Assembly (NCBI GenBank): GCA_020073165.1
Contig: JAIQFP010000001.1
Coordinates: 62,001-126,000, forward strand
Direction of reading: 5' to 3'
Source of the DNA: Terriglobia bacterium
Lineage (GTDB): Bacteria; Acidobacteriota; Terriglobia; Terriglobales; Acidobacteriaceae
DNA: 64,000 nucleotides
In this document: in pieces, positions 46,962 to 62,920 of the stretch
Layout: each line of letters starts with the position of its first letter
Numbering within the stretch: position 1 is the stretch's first letter
Program-made: the position numbers and the translations under genes
The notes under the pieces: model-generated
What the model saw: only the letters and a program-made list of their open reading frames with translations
Databases searched by the model: none
What the model was told of the DNA's origin: nothing

Positions 46962-46986
46962 GTGATTCGTGTGGTGTGGGTGCATG

Positions 46987-47013
46987 GCCGTAGCGCCGGC
47001 GCCCCGCCGGCCA
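46987..47013. repeat. GCCGTAGCGCCGGCG-type dispersed palindromic repeat
   Basis: GCCGTAGCGCCGGCGCCCCG is followed by CCGGCCA. It shares most bases with 53954-53980 and sits between convergent genes. Confidence 0.65.
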
Positions 47014-47042
47014 CCATGCTCCGAACCAACGGCGCCAGGCTC

Positions 47043-47457: not shown

Positions 47458-48630
47458 CTATTGCGCGGGCGCGTAGTAGCCGTGGCGGCTGCGCACCTTC
47501 AGACCCTTCTTGTTTTGCGCCAGGATCTCGATAGTGCGAAAGCGGCCGTCGGCACGGAAGTCGGCGGGCTTGTAGGAGAGCGCGTACTGGCTGCGCAGTT
47601 CGTCCTGGATCTCGGTGAACGCATTGGCCACGTCGTTGAGCTGGAACGGAAAGAAGGAACGGCCGCCGGTGGCGTCGGCAATGCGCTCCAGCACTTTGTC
47701 GGCCCGGCCCCGCGTGCCCGAGATATTCGTGCTGATGGTGTACACGATCACCTCGGCGCGCTGCGCCATCTCGATGGCCTCTTCCCGTGAGACATGGCTC
47801 TGGTTGTCATCGCCATCGCTCAGCAGAATGATGGCTCGCCGCACGGGACCGCTCTGGGTGTGCTTCATCAGCTTGTCGCGGCAAGCAAAGTACAAGGCAT
47901 CGTACATGGCGGTGCCGCCCCCGGGACGCAAATCGCGCACTCCCCGCGACAGCGCTTCGGTATTGTCGGTGAAGTCCTGGGTGACATCCGGGGTTACGTC
48001 GAATCCCACAACGAAAGCCTGGTCGTATTTCGGCCGTACCGTCTGGTTGAGAAACTCAATCGCTGCCTCCTGCTCGAACTTGAAGCGATCGCGCACCGAG
48101 TTGCTGGCGTCCACCAGCAGCCCGACCTGCAACGGCAGATCGTTCTCACTGTGGAAGCTGCGAATCTCGGCCGCAGGCCGGTTGTCATCCACGACCGCGA
48201 AGTCGCCCTTCTTGAGGTCGCGCACAAAGTGGCCGTGTTTGTCGGTCACGGTGAACACGACGTTCACTTCGTTGACGAAGGTGCGAATGGTAGTGGCGGC
48301 CTCGTCCAGCGGAGGCGTGGGCTTGTCAGACGCGGGAGCGGCATCGGCCTTGGGCGACTCGATGGCCGGCGCGTCGGCCGCTGGCTGCGGTGGGGGCGTT
48401 GTGGGCTGCGGCTTGGCCGTATCCGCCGGAGCCTGGGTTGGCGACTCCTGCGGCGGTGGCGTCTGCTGCTGCGGCGCGGGGGGCCGGGCCTGCGGCTTGT
48501 TCTGCTGCAGCGTGGCGGATGGCGCGGAAGGCAGCTCCTGCCCGGAATTCTGCGCCGCAACCGGGGGCAGAAGCAGGGCACTGCCGGCCAAAAGCAGGAT
48601 GAAACTGGGGACCCTCATCTTTGCTTTCAT
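47458..48630 (-). CDS. VWFA-related acidobacterial domain protein with Pro/Gln-rich linker
   Basis: 390 residues (ATG at 48630, or 48618). A signal peptide (FILLLAGSALLLPPVAA) is followed by a Pro/Gln/Ala-rich stretch to about residue 110 and then the domain FVNEVNVVFTVTDKHGHFVRDLKKGDFAVVDDNRPA. The metal site is intact (LLVDASNSVRDRF), and the Asp of LLSDGDDNQSHVSREEA is present. It ends LRSQYALSYKP... GYYAPAQ. It heads an operon with the DUF3052 gene and lies 80 bp from the RluA gene. Confidence 0.9.
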   Translation of the reverse strand: MKAKMRVPSFILLLAGSALLLPPVAAQNSGQELPSAPSATLQQNKPQARPPAPQQQTPPPQESPTQAPADTAKPQPTTPPPQPAADAPAIESPKADAAPASDKPTPPLDEAATTIRTFVNEVNVVFTVTDKHGHFVRDLKKGDFAVVDDNRPAAEIRSFHSENDLPLQVGLLVDASNSVRDRFKFEQEAAIEFLNQTVRPKYDQAFVVGFDVTPDVTQDFTDNTEALSRGVRDLRPGGGTAMYDALYFACRDKLMKHTQSGPVRRAIILLSDGDDNQSHVSREEAIEMAQRAEVIVYTISTNISGTRGRADKVLERIADATGGRSFFPFQLNDVANAFTEIQDELRSQYALSYKPADFRADGRFRTIEILAQNKKGLKVRSRHGYYAPAQ

Positions 48631-50631: not shown

Positions 50632-50740
50632 TAGTCCATTAGATGCAAACAAAATCGAAAATGCTGGGCACAGTTTAGCAGGAAAGGGAAGCCTGGGTCG
50701 CCGCTGGTCCGCACTCGCGTCTCTACTGGCTTGGCCACCG

Positions 50741-50766
50741 ACCAACGACGAACGACCAACGACGAA
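50741..50766. repeat. ACGACNA heptamer repeat
   Basis: ACCAACG-ACGAACG-ACCAACG-ACGAA in the lgt leader region, next to the 6S RNA end. Related tracts are at 56122-56150 and 61482-61514. Confidence 0.75.
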
Positions 50767-56061: not shown

Positions 56062-56121
56062 TTCACTTCGTTTCTAAATCCAACTGAATCGTGTCGCGAC
56101 TGTCTTTCTTTTGCTCTCGCC

Positions 56122-56150
56122 GACGACTAACGACGAACGACCAACGACCG
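56122..56150. repeat. ACGACNA heptamer repeat between pheS and pheT
   Basis: ACGACTA-ACGACGA-ACGACCA-ACGACCG. It is the same 7-nt motif as at 50741-50766 and (inverted) 61482-61514. Confidence 0.8.
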
Positions 56151-57795: not shown

Positions 57796-57898
57796 GGTCT
57801 GCTCCTTTTTTCTTTCGTTTTCACGGCGGCTGGAGGTAGGAGACTTTGCAGTCTGACCTCTTCACTCGCCCGGCGAGCTGCTTTCGGTTTGCTCGCAA

Positions 57899-57931
57899 CT
57901 CGGTACACGGTACTCGGTACTGAGTTAGTAC
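57899..57931. repeat. GGTACTC heptamer repeat between rplT and rpmI
   Basis: CTCGGTACACGGTACTCGGT continues ACTGAGTTAGTAC. The motif GGTACWC and a GTACTNA variant are repeated; similar to 27629-27665. It overlaps the rpmI stop codon. Confidence 0.7.
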
Positions 57932-60500: not shown

Positions 60501-61958
60501 CTACGCCCAGTCTCTGCCCAGCAGCGTTCCATCTTCGACCCCTTCCACCAGTACCCGAATCCACCGGTTGGCTTCGTGCCTCCCGGTCACGCGGACCTTC
60601 AGATAATTGCTGGTTAGGGCCTCGGTGCGCTCGCATTCGAAGGTGCTGAGGGTGATAGCCTCCACCGCTTTTCCAACGAACGACCGCATGAACTCCTGCT
60701 TTTTCGCTGCCGCAAGTTCGCGCAACATGCGGTTGCGCTCCCGCGCCACCTGCACCGGAACCTGGTTACGCATCGCCGCCGCCGGCGTCCCTGGTCGCGC
60801 CGAGTACGTGAACACGTGCAGATAAGTGAAGGGCAGTTCTTCCACCATGCGCCGCGTCTCTCCAAAATCGGCGTCAGTTTCGCCAGGGAAGCCCACCATC
60901 ACGTCCGCCCCGATCGCCGCCGTGGGCATGGCTTCACGAATCCTGAGAATCTTCTCCCGATAATGCCACGGCCGATACTTGCGATGCATGGCCCGCAGTA
61001 CCCGGTCACTGCCCGATTGCATGGGTACATGCGCGTGCTTCGCAACGCGTGGCGACTCGGCCACGAGGCGAAGGAGTTCATCGCTCCAGTCCATCGGCTC
61101 GACCGAACTGATACGCAGCTTCTCCAGAGAGGTTCGCTCGAGAATCGAGCGGACAAGGTCTTCAAATCGCATTTGCCGCGCGCTTTTCCTGATGGCTGAC
61201 GGCTGATGGCTGACGGCTAGGTCCCGTCCCCATCGGCCCAAGTTGATCCCGGAGATGACCACTTCGCGGTATCCTGATGCGACCAGCGCATCCACTTCGC
61301 GGAGGACCGCTTCCAGCTTTAGCGACCGGCTCTGCCCCCGCACGTAAGGGATCACGCAGAACGAACAACGGTTGTCGCATCCATCCTGCACTTTGAGGTT
61401 GGGACGCGTGCGCTCGCTGGCGGCATCGAACACCGGCGCTGCCAGCAGTTCGGTGTGGGCGAAAATGTCAGAAACGAAAACCAGTCGTTGGTCGTTGGCC
61501 GCCGGTCGTTGGTCACATGCGGTCAGCTTCGTAAGAGGCACGAAGCCACCAGCCTGTTCCGTATCAGGGCATGGCTTCAGCCATGCCGAGTGCTCCCAAA
61601 GCAGGCCGGCTTTCGCCGCTGAATGTGCGAGTGCAAGCTGGGCCAACTGATGTTTATGGGAATTCCCAATCACTCGAGCTACGCCCGGCAGGACTGCCAA
61701 CTCCTCCGGCGCCCGCTGTGCGTAGCAGCCAGTCACCACAATCTGGCAGCCGGGATTCTCGCGATGAATCCGTCGGATCGCCGCCCGCGCATCTTGATCC
61801 GCTGCTGCGGTTACCGTGCAGGTGTTGAGCACCACAATCTCGGCTTCGCCGGGCGCCCCGGCACGCTCCAATCCGCGCTCGCGGAACTGACGTTCGATGG
61901 CGGCGCCGTCAGCCTGTGTGGCTCGGCAGCCAAAGTTTTCCACGTAGAAACTGCCCAC
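60501..61958 (-). CDS. mtaB: MtaB-like tRNA 2-methylthio-transferase with repeat-derived in-frame insertions
   Basis: 485 residues from a GTG at 61958 (frame open to ATG 62030); MtaB is usually near 430-450. N-terminal UPF0004 domain (FYVENFGCRATQADGAAI, VVLNTCTVTAAADQDARAAIRR, GCYAQRAPEELA), radical SAM core with CDNRCSFCVIPYVRGQSRS (CxxxCxxC, near residue 194), and a C-terminal TRAM domain. MtaB makes ms2t6A37 in tRNAs reading ANN codons. Residues about 125-131, 149-159 and 246-256 are coded by intergenic-type repeats (61568-61587, 61482-61514, 61191-61221), which lengthen loops without breaking the frame. Confidence 0.9.
   Translation of the reverse strand: MGSFYVENFGCRATQADGAAIERQFRERGLERAGAPGEAEIVVLNTCTVTAAADQDARAAIRRIHRENPGCQIVVTGCYAQRAPEELAVLPGVARVIGNSHKHQLAQLALAHSAAKAGLLWEHSAWLKPCPDTEQAGGFVPLTKLTACDQRPAANDQRLVFVSDIFAHTELLAAPVFDAASERTRPNLKVQDGCDNRCSFCVIPYVRGQSRSLKLEAVLREVDALVASGYREVVISGINLGRWGRDLAVSHQPSAIRKSARQMRFEDLVRSILERTSLEKLRISSVEPMDWSDELLRLVAESPRVAKHAHVPMQSGSDRVLRAMHRKYRPWHYREKILRIREAMPTAAIGADVMVGFPGETDADFGETRRMVEELPFTYLHVFTYSARPGTPAAAMRNQVPVQVARERNRMLRELAAAKKQEFMRSFVGKAVEAITLSTFECERTEALTSNYLKVRVTGRHEANRWIRVLVEGVEDGTLLGRDWA
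61191..61221. repeat. GGCTGAY heptamer tract inside mtaB
   Basis: GATGGCTGACGGCTGATGGC then TGACGGCTAGG: four near-perfect copies of GGCTGAY. It is read in frame within the mtaB-like gene as AVSHQPSAIR. Confidence 0.85.
61482..61514. repeat. CGTTGGT heptamer tract inside mtaB
   Basis: AGTCGTTGGTCGTTGGCCGC then CGGTCGTTGGTCA, the reverse complement of the ACGACCA motif at 50741 and 56122. It is read in frame as DQRPAANDQRL. Confidence 0.85.
61568..61587. repeat. GGCATGGCT-TC-AGCCATGCC palindrome inside mtaB
   Basis: A perfect 9-bp inverted repeat with a 2-nt loop, in a tract (about 61560-61610) whose flanks also look like the dispersed palindromic repeat seen at 44367. It is coded as AWLKPCP in the mtaB-like frame. 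Confidence 0.8.
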
Positions 61959-62605: not shown

Positions 62606-62920
62606 TCAGGCCGAAGCCGCTTGTCGCCGCTGCTGGAAGCATTCCCGGCAGAACACCGGTCGTCCCTGCGTTGGCTTGAAGGGTACGGTGGTTTCTTTGC
62701 CGCACTGCGAGCACACGGTGCGGGTCTCAACTTTGGCAAAGCCGCCGCCAGCGCGTACCGGCGCTGCCCCCAGCACCGACACCCGTTTGGCTTTGCAGAC
62801 CTTGCACCGCTTGGGTTCGTTCTTGAACTGCTTGTCGTGGAAAAACAACTGTTCCCCGGCCGTGAAGACGAAATCGGCGCCGCAGTCAATGCATTTCAAC
62901 ACCTTGTCCTGGAATTCCAT
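62606..62920 (-). CDS. Zinc-ribbon protein (two Cys4 modules)
   Basis: 104 residues. First module CIDCGADFVFTAGEQLFFHDKQFKNEPKRCKVCK (CxxC...CxxC), second CSQCGKETTVPFKPTQGRPVFCRECFQQRR. This matches the 'zinc-ribbon domain containing' CxxC-x-DFxFTxGEQxFF family. Probably a small nucleic-acid-related protein; its exact function is unknown. A 260-bp spacer with two hairpins separates it from rpsU. Confidence 0.85.
   Translation of the reverse strand: MEFQDKVLKCIDCGADFVFTAGEQLFFHDKQFKNEPKRCKVCKAKRVSVLGAAPVRAGGGFAKVETRTVCSQCGKETTVPFKPTQGRPVFCRECFQQRRQAASA

Follow-up and report, generated by a model that had tools for sequence, protein, structure and literature searches.

How repeats of a mostly intergenic kind come to lie, with the reading frame intact, inside the gene of a tRNA-modifying enzyme is the question raised by this locus of the window, i.e., of the whole 64,000-nucleotide stretch of DNA analyzed here. 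The gene (60501..61958, minus strand) had been described as MtaB-like in a first-pass annotation, an assignment that holds, since both the gene call and a match to TIGR01579 (403.5 bits in the profile search, against an equivalog cut-off of 357.05) identify it as MtaB, the tRNA (N6-threonylcarbamoyladenosine(37)-C2)-methylthiotransferase. Translation likely starts at the GTG at 61958, with the open frame extending further upstream. Cysteines C11, C47, C78, C194, C198 and C201, which include the CxxxCxxC motif and which we take to be the residues binding the Fe-S clusters, are invariant in 27 of 27 aligned homologs, and judging from this conservation the enzyme is probably active. Alignment of orthologs delimits two variable regions, both on the minus strand: loop 1 (residues 108–162, 61473..61637) is the hypervariable, insert-bearing linker of the N-terminal and radical-SAM domains, and loop 2 (residues 248–264, 61167..61217) follows the motif GINLGRWGRDL. 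In an AlphaFold2 model built on 27 alignment rows (mean pLDDT 77.5), pLDDT fell below 50 at residues 114–155 of loop 1 and 251–259 of loop 2; as it did so at residues 195–199 and 202–208 too, adjoining the radical-SAM cysteines, a low value is by itself no proof of disorder, and we regard the loops as permissive and probably disordered. At 62606-62920 (minus strand), a 104-aa open reading frame absent from the gene calls contains four CxxC pairs and resembles, by eye, a small zinc-ribbon protein. No RNA family reached its gathering score between 55000 and 64000.

The three repeats reported inside the gene are all present. Loop 1 holds a CGTTGGT/ACGACCA heptad tract (61482..61514, plus strand; 61484-61514 according to TRF), read as CDQRPAANDQR, together with a perfect palindrome with 9-bp arms at 61568..61587 (GGCATGGCT-TC-AGCCATGCC), read as SAWLKPCP. 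The GGCTGAY tract of loop 2 (plus strand), read as AVSHQPSAIR, extends slightly further than first described, to 61189..61221, and TRF resolves 61189-61218 as a 14-bp super-unit with 100% match. The first-pass annotation held that all three repeats are read in frame, which is correct for the insert as a whole but not for its units: seven not being a multiple of three, each heptad is read in another frame than its neighbor, so that three of them (21 bp, 7 residues) use every frame, and it is the entire insert that keeps the frame.

It had also placed the same motifs in spacers elsewhere in the window, which proved right for CGTTGGT, weakly so for GGCTGAY, and wrong for the palindrome. CGTTGGT matches the window nine times at up to 2 mismatches (2.2 expected; two of the nine are the MtaB tract itself), and spacer tracts of the CGTTGGT type, the first of the same class as the loop-1 tract, occur at 50735..50766 and 56123..56149 (both minus strand), with CGTTGGT matches at 50735-50761 and 56120-56146; another spacer tract, at 57892..57921 (plus strand), is built of ACTCGGT. 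GGCTGAY has eight such matches against 2.4 expected, three of them in the MtaB tract, outside which the window contains no exact GGCTGAY double unit. At the scale of the genome, GGCTGAYGGCTGA, of the GGCTGAY type, matched 16 times, in 12 tracts, and its reversed control twice, while CGTTGGTCGTTGG, the CGTTGGT/ACGACCA double unit, gave 13 matches including the MtaB copy (control 0): both MtaB heptamer tracts are beyond chance. A single copy of the palindrome core was found in the window, and the genome has no other; it is therefore no dispersed motif of this organism, so that it was rejected as a shared repeat. Its 20-mer pattern, GGCATGGCTNNAGCCATGCC, has 95 copies in one genome of the same class (G056) and 0-5 in the 59 other genomes searched. 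A different stretch of the window, 30 bp at 46986-47016, matches the sister genome G001 at 23 places (84–97% identity), and some of these form closely spaced inverted pairs; as two copies (C34:47981-48010 and 48095-48122) adjoin a Y1 transposase gene (C34:47652-47933), the stretch seems to represent a genuine REP family accompanied by its transposase.

The heptad tracts belong to a class that is widespread on the contig holding the window (C23), to which the period enrichment and the division between spacers and coding DNA refer. In exact runs over 424 kb of this contig, compared with five sequences simulated under a third-order Markov model, only 7 and 14 were clearly enriched among the periods not divisible by 3. 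With mismatches allowed, 24 period-7 tracts reached score 11, whereas the control periods 4, 5, 8, 10, 11, 13, 16, 17, 19 and 20 yielded 0-3 each. The 28 period-7 tracts at score 10 were distributed over spacers (21), gene edges (4) and coding DNA (3), on a contig of which about 84% was called coding, spacer counts being approximate as the simple gene finder misses some short genes. With head-to-tail 7-bp units above chance and an intergenic excess, the tracts are heptameric simple sequence repeats. No single unit type dominates this genome, however, since 77 tracts collected over 811 kb comprised 33 distinct consensus units in imperfect copies (ACGACCA, GGCTGAC, CAGCATT, CTAATTG and ACTCGGT are examples); that sample includes 20 stretches outside C23 chosen around motif hits, so that its counts are no fair genome sample, and ACGACCA is the commonest unit partly because stretches were picked for it. 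The 33 units fit a shared YAGNNNT frame with 5.5 bits, against a maximum of 4.9 in 40 letter-shuffled sets, in a test made lenient by related units being counted separately and hence non-independent. No invariant tetranucleotide such as a GTAG or CGTC tag was found among the units compared, a comparison of units and not of element ends. Beyond this organism, the ACGACCA pattern was detected in 16 of the 61 genomes searched, where it matched at most 16 times per genome (8-16 times in six of them), overlapping matches within a tract being counted apart; the reversed word gave 0-4 in 60 genomes and 21 in G051. In the latter, a member of the same class, the control word is itself a repeated heptad (unit ACCAGCA), seemingly an abundant heptad of its own. 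Relatives outside the genus, sampled with 16.8-40 kb from each of 23 genomes, yielded 24 period-7 tracts in 12 genomes, compared with 0, 6, 2, 0 and 1 tracts at control periods 5, 8, 10, 11 and 13.

Alignment with MtaB from other bacteria, a check proposed at the outset, revealed that the same two loops are filled in this way again and again. We retrieved 110 MtaB loci, 100 of them distinct, and dropped ten non-acidobacterial rows and two fragments to retain 88; six peptides served for the search, and as WEHSAWLK among them comes from loop 1, there is a small bias towards that loop; the loop boundaries derive from one MAFFT alignment. Loop 1 ranged from 15 to 73 aa among the 88 acidobacterial orthologs, with just two below 20 aa, while loop 2 measured 5 aa or less in 37 and up to 77 aa in others. 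Period-7 tracts at score 8 were present in loop 1 of 26 orthologs and loop 2 of 30, in at least one loop of 38 and in both of 18, compared with 0-2 for seven control periods, and codon shuffling within each loop left a mean of 0.28 (loop 1) and 0.15 (loop 2), with a maximum of 2 in 200 rounds. Outside the loops the MtaB genes showed one period-7 tract in 100 kb (control periods 0-5). The units differ among genera, and a quick tree of 86 rows (two more partial rows dropped, loops removed, 33 of 83 inner branches unresolved) requires at least 13 changes of tract state in loop 1 and at least 11 in loop 2. Close relatives can differ as well: L072 and L131 are 90% identical in the MtaB body with unrelated loop-2 sequences, and in L075, L076, L080 and L134, at 92–94% identity, loop 2 varies from 21 to 52 aa, a difference of up to 31 aa. 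Among 30 genomes, tracts in MtaB were commoner in those with at least two ACGACCA matches (5/9 vs. 2/21, p = 0.014), in a comparison tallied by hand in which the counts include MtaB's own copies. Since the repeats belong to a mostly intergenic class, and the loops are far shorter in many relatives, spacer-type DNA does shape the MtaB protein.

Other genes carry such tracts, too. Within predicted genes of the 811 kb, which were partly chosen for motif hits, ten score-11 tracts were found, in (NCBIfam names) MtaB (loop 2), RsmH, DnaE2 (two), a molybdopterin oxidoreductase scoring below every NCBIfam family cut-off, HemL, TilS, MnmG, MtnA and TrpA; in HemL, MtnA and TrpA the position is C-terminal or nearly so. 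For MnmG, 60 genomes gave a match and 30 of them were surveyed: 13 of the 30 orthologs have tracts, with varying units, in one loop (0-1 for each of five control periods), and 2 have them in another (controls 0-1). The two in-frame tracts of DnaE2, an error-prone polymerase, are in L049:3995-7267, and DnaE2 has been listed among REP-bearing genes (PMC3733652). In some genera the same MtaB and MnmG loops are filled by a second type of in-frame insert (CHPERSEA, CHSEERSDEES, HPERSE, ILSEGPALSEPKGS and similar), encountered in the MnmG gene at L056:9434-11542 and in the loops of L012, L025, L237 and L239.

Many tracts are arranged as hairpin arms. When inverted partners of score 12 were sought within 200 bp over the 811 kb, 29 of 77 tracts had one, compared with 0.5% of random places, and the other 48 had none. 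As with REP and RPE elements, the hairpins are palindromic spacer DNA that also occurs in frame in genes, here in the MtaB and MnmG loops. Among loop-2 inserts no shorter than 20 aa, those with a score-10 tract folded at z < −2 relative to codon shuffles in 12 of 21 cases and those with a tract score below 8 in 0 of 5, five inserts of intermediate score (8 to 10) being excluded from this comparison; the best of them, in L108, L085, L089, L131 and L077, are complete hairpins with both heptad arms translated, that of L108 reaching −70.1 kcal/mol (z −7.5). Loop-1 inserts displayed no folding excess (2/24 with tracts vs. 7/60 without, mean z −0.6 vs. −0.7). In the MtaB of the window, an inverted partner is lacking for the loop-2 tract (score 6.5), and the loop-1 tract (score 9) is under the cut-off of the partner test. 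Heptad tracts were also seen beside or around terminator-like hairpins at C23:190470-190600, L056:1110-1240 and L059 near 7615. Transcription termination as a general role was considered and rejected, because tracts are under-represented in convergent spacers (2/47 vs. 69/470 in the 811-kb sample, p = 0.046).

A comparison of sister strains, likewise suggested by the first-pass annotation, uncovered extension, loss and change of unit in place. In 121 kb of aligned orthologous stretches of the window's genome (G000) and its sister G001, six score-11 tracts were shared, nine were scored in G000 alone and 16 in G001 alone; the one-sided cases include weaker tracts that are not absences. RsmH has 21 bp (3 units) more heptads in G001, and in TilS one genome has ACTGAGA at the place where the other has CTGACGA. 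Both arms of a hairpin that lies in no predicted gene (L056, near 1127-1224) differ between the genomes, largely by a change of the CAGCC to the CAGTC type, and each version still folds, with −92.8 kcal/mol for a 175-base piece and −78.0 kcal/mol for a 146-base piece. The spacer tract at 50735-50766 has heptads in the orthologous G001 stretch as well; for the one at 56123-56149 no heptads were found at the aligned G001 place. Divergence amounted to 17% in spacer tracts, 13% in other alignable spacer DNA and 26% at third codon positions. Within MtaB, dN/dS was 0.63 in the loops vs. 0.08 in the body, with a low loop dS (0.115 vs. 0.70). The loop-1 CGTTGGT tract is identical in G001 and the palindrome has one mismatch there; over the 40 codons containing both (61482-61587), 0 of 22 fourfold sites changed compared with 78 of 197 (40%) outside the loops (p = 7e-5), in a region fixed by the given features and not picked from the data, and in a single gene pair. 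The other loop-bearing 20-codon blocks had changes at 3/12 and 1/8 fourfold sites. The synonymous conservation of loop 1 is at odds with a simple neutral loop, and either constraint at the DNA or RNA level or a recent exchange between lineages would account for the pattern.

Heptanucleotide repeats of Calothrix go by the name of STRR. Several different tandem heptanucleotides occur in one Calothrix genome, as in ours (PMC4692102); the likeness is one of description, not of sequence, and neither hairpin arms nor in-frame loops figure in that description. GGGNATC heptamers of Xanthomonas and Nostoc, located preferably between aligned ORFs (PMC4692102), and TAACTGA heptamers of Beggiatoaceae, where 25 proteins of one genome contain or overlap repeats and related heptamers are rarely repeated (PMC4679880), share with the present tracts the period of 7, the many places per genome and the mostly intergenic position, but are reported there as one unit type, whereas here tens of imperfect units often form hairpin arms and recur at internal loops. 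The closest parallel for the intragenic inserts is that of the Rickettsia palindromic elements (RPE) and of intragenic GTAG/CGTC REPs, which likewise bring short palindromic spacer DNA in frame into housekeeping genes, including those of DnaE2 and tRNA pseudouridine synthases, and of which two Xanthomonas species bear different members at about the same recB site (PMC3733652). Those families have a defined sequence and a terminal tag, while here tandem heptad arms vary in unit by place and between close species, the loop filled is the same one across dozens of species and no link to a transposase was found around 15 Y1 genes. In-frame REP/RPE insertions and intergenic heptamers are thus known already. 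In the literature searched, which left subscription papers largely outside, we found no description of heptad repeats of such kind in Acidobacteria, nor, in the same literature, of variable heptad arms or of the repeated filling of one loop across dozens of species; heptad-armed hairpins of changing unit and the reuse of one loop look like a new form of these known phenomena.

The tracts and their class, their recurrence at the same loops, the in-frame hairpin arms of some relatives and the differences between close species are observed. The reading that we prefer, with a probability of about 0.6, is that permissive, probably disordered loops repeatedly acquire and exchange spacer-type DNA made locally by slippage and hairpin template switching; in it, we infer the generator (slippage, template switching), the direction of the changes and their neutrality. 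These genomes would keep producing short imperfect period-7 tracts, often as two hairpin arms, through replication slippage inside a tract and through template switching that copies one arm onto the other. Most tracts would land or grow in spacers, and those reaching an unconstrained loop or tail would survive if they kept the frame and were free of stops, later extension, loss and replacement making the loop differ between species and the protein loop being a tolerated by-product. Template switching is described as making and mending hairpins (PMC8794818) and, at inverted repeats in coding DNA, as a source of amino-acid change (PMC8604942); as in our tracts, arms are corrected towards each other and coding DNA is altered, but this quasipalindrome mutagenesis is a mutational process and not a repeat family, and it provides no reason for a period of 7 (PMC8794818, PMC8604942). 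A unit changed in place and two arms changed together fit slippage with arm-to-arm template switching and not a ready-made insertion. Against this reading speak the loop-1 fourfold sites without a change, the lack of an inverted partner for the window's loop-2 tract and the loop-1 inserts, which with tracts fold no more than without; the 8-16 ACGACCA matches in six genomes and the shared YAGNNNT frame argue against a purely local one, and slippage gives no reason for seven. As favored units recur and the number seven is unexplained, a mobile or templated process is retained as a rival.

In its mobile form, that rival regards the tracts as non-autonomous elements of the REP, RPE or MITE kind, copied to spacers and by chance to tolerant loops, and it would explain why one unit appears many times per genome, why hairpins are so common and why G000 and G001 differ in presence and absence; Y1 transposase genes exist in 50 of 61 genomes, and acidobacterial transposases flanked by terminal inverted repeats, as well as REP and RPE inside genes, are on record (PMC3733652). 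We nonetheless consider it unlikely, because units vary by place and genus, 13 of the 15 Y1 genes examined (a subset of those found) have no score-10 tract within 700 bp, the three tracts in 25 kb around Y1 genes are not clearly above the contig background, and simple insertion would not leave different units at one position in closely related species (TilS, L072/L131). The conclusion of the first-pass annotation that a mobile or replicating repeat is at work is therefore unsupported, and the REP transposase was rejected as a mover, Y1 genes being nearly everywhere and tracts not gathered at the 15 examined. The recurrence of ACGACCA in several genomes leaves some form of spread possible. In its templated form, Acidobacteriota would have an active process, inherently advancing in steps of seven nucleotides, that places heptad arms of changing unit in spacers and in loops able to tolerate them; essential tRNA-modifying enzymes would thereby keep gaining newly made protein segments. 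The agent might be, for example, a polymerase or a reverse-transcribed template acting on hairpins, and we rate this as speculative and improbable.

Retention of the insert DNA for a task at the RNA or DNA level, e.g., an mRNA hairpin that slows ribosomes or protects the message, appears no less improbable. The very stable in-frame hairpin of L108, the sister-genome hairpin that still pairs while its unit changes and the unchanged loop-1 fourfold sites in G000 and G001 would suit it, but many orthologs (37/88) manage with a loop 2 of 5 aa or less, loop-1 inserts with tracts fold no more than those without, the divergence of spacer tracts resembles that of the remaining alignable spacer DNA and the convergent spacers, where terminators belong, are under-used. 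That selection acts on the protein, with the loops a useful MtaB linker and the repeats a coincidence of codon usage, is very improbable: some linker is always present, as the rarity of a loop 1 below 20 aa indicates, but codon shuffling reduces the 26 and 30 tracts to fewer than one, the encoded residues differ between species and the loops are modeled with low confidence.

Seven-letter repeats of an intergenic type have settled, with the frame intact, in two loops of MtaB in this acidobacterium and in many of its relatives, often differing by species. For annotators this is a warning that such loops are not conserved sequence. For the study of how non-coding repeats become protein, it offers a system that can be counted, with one loop, dozens of species and many separate in-frame fillings, and it makes two questions testable, namely why bacterial tandem repeats so often have a period of seven, and whether template switching at hairpins writes new segments of proteins.
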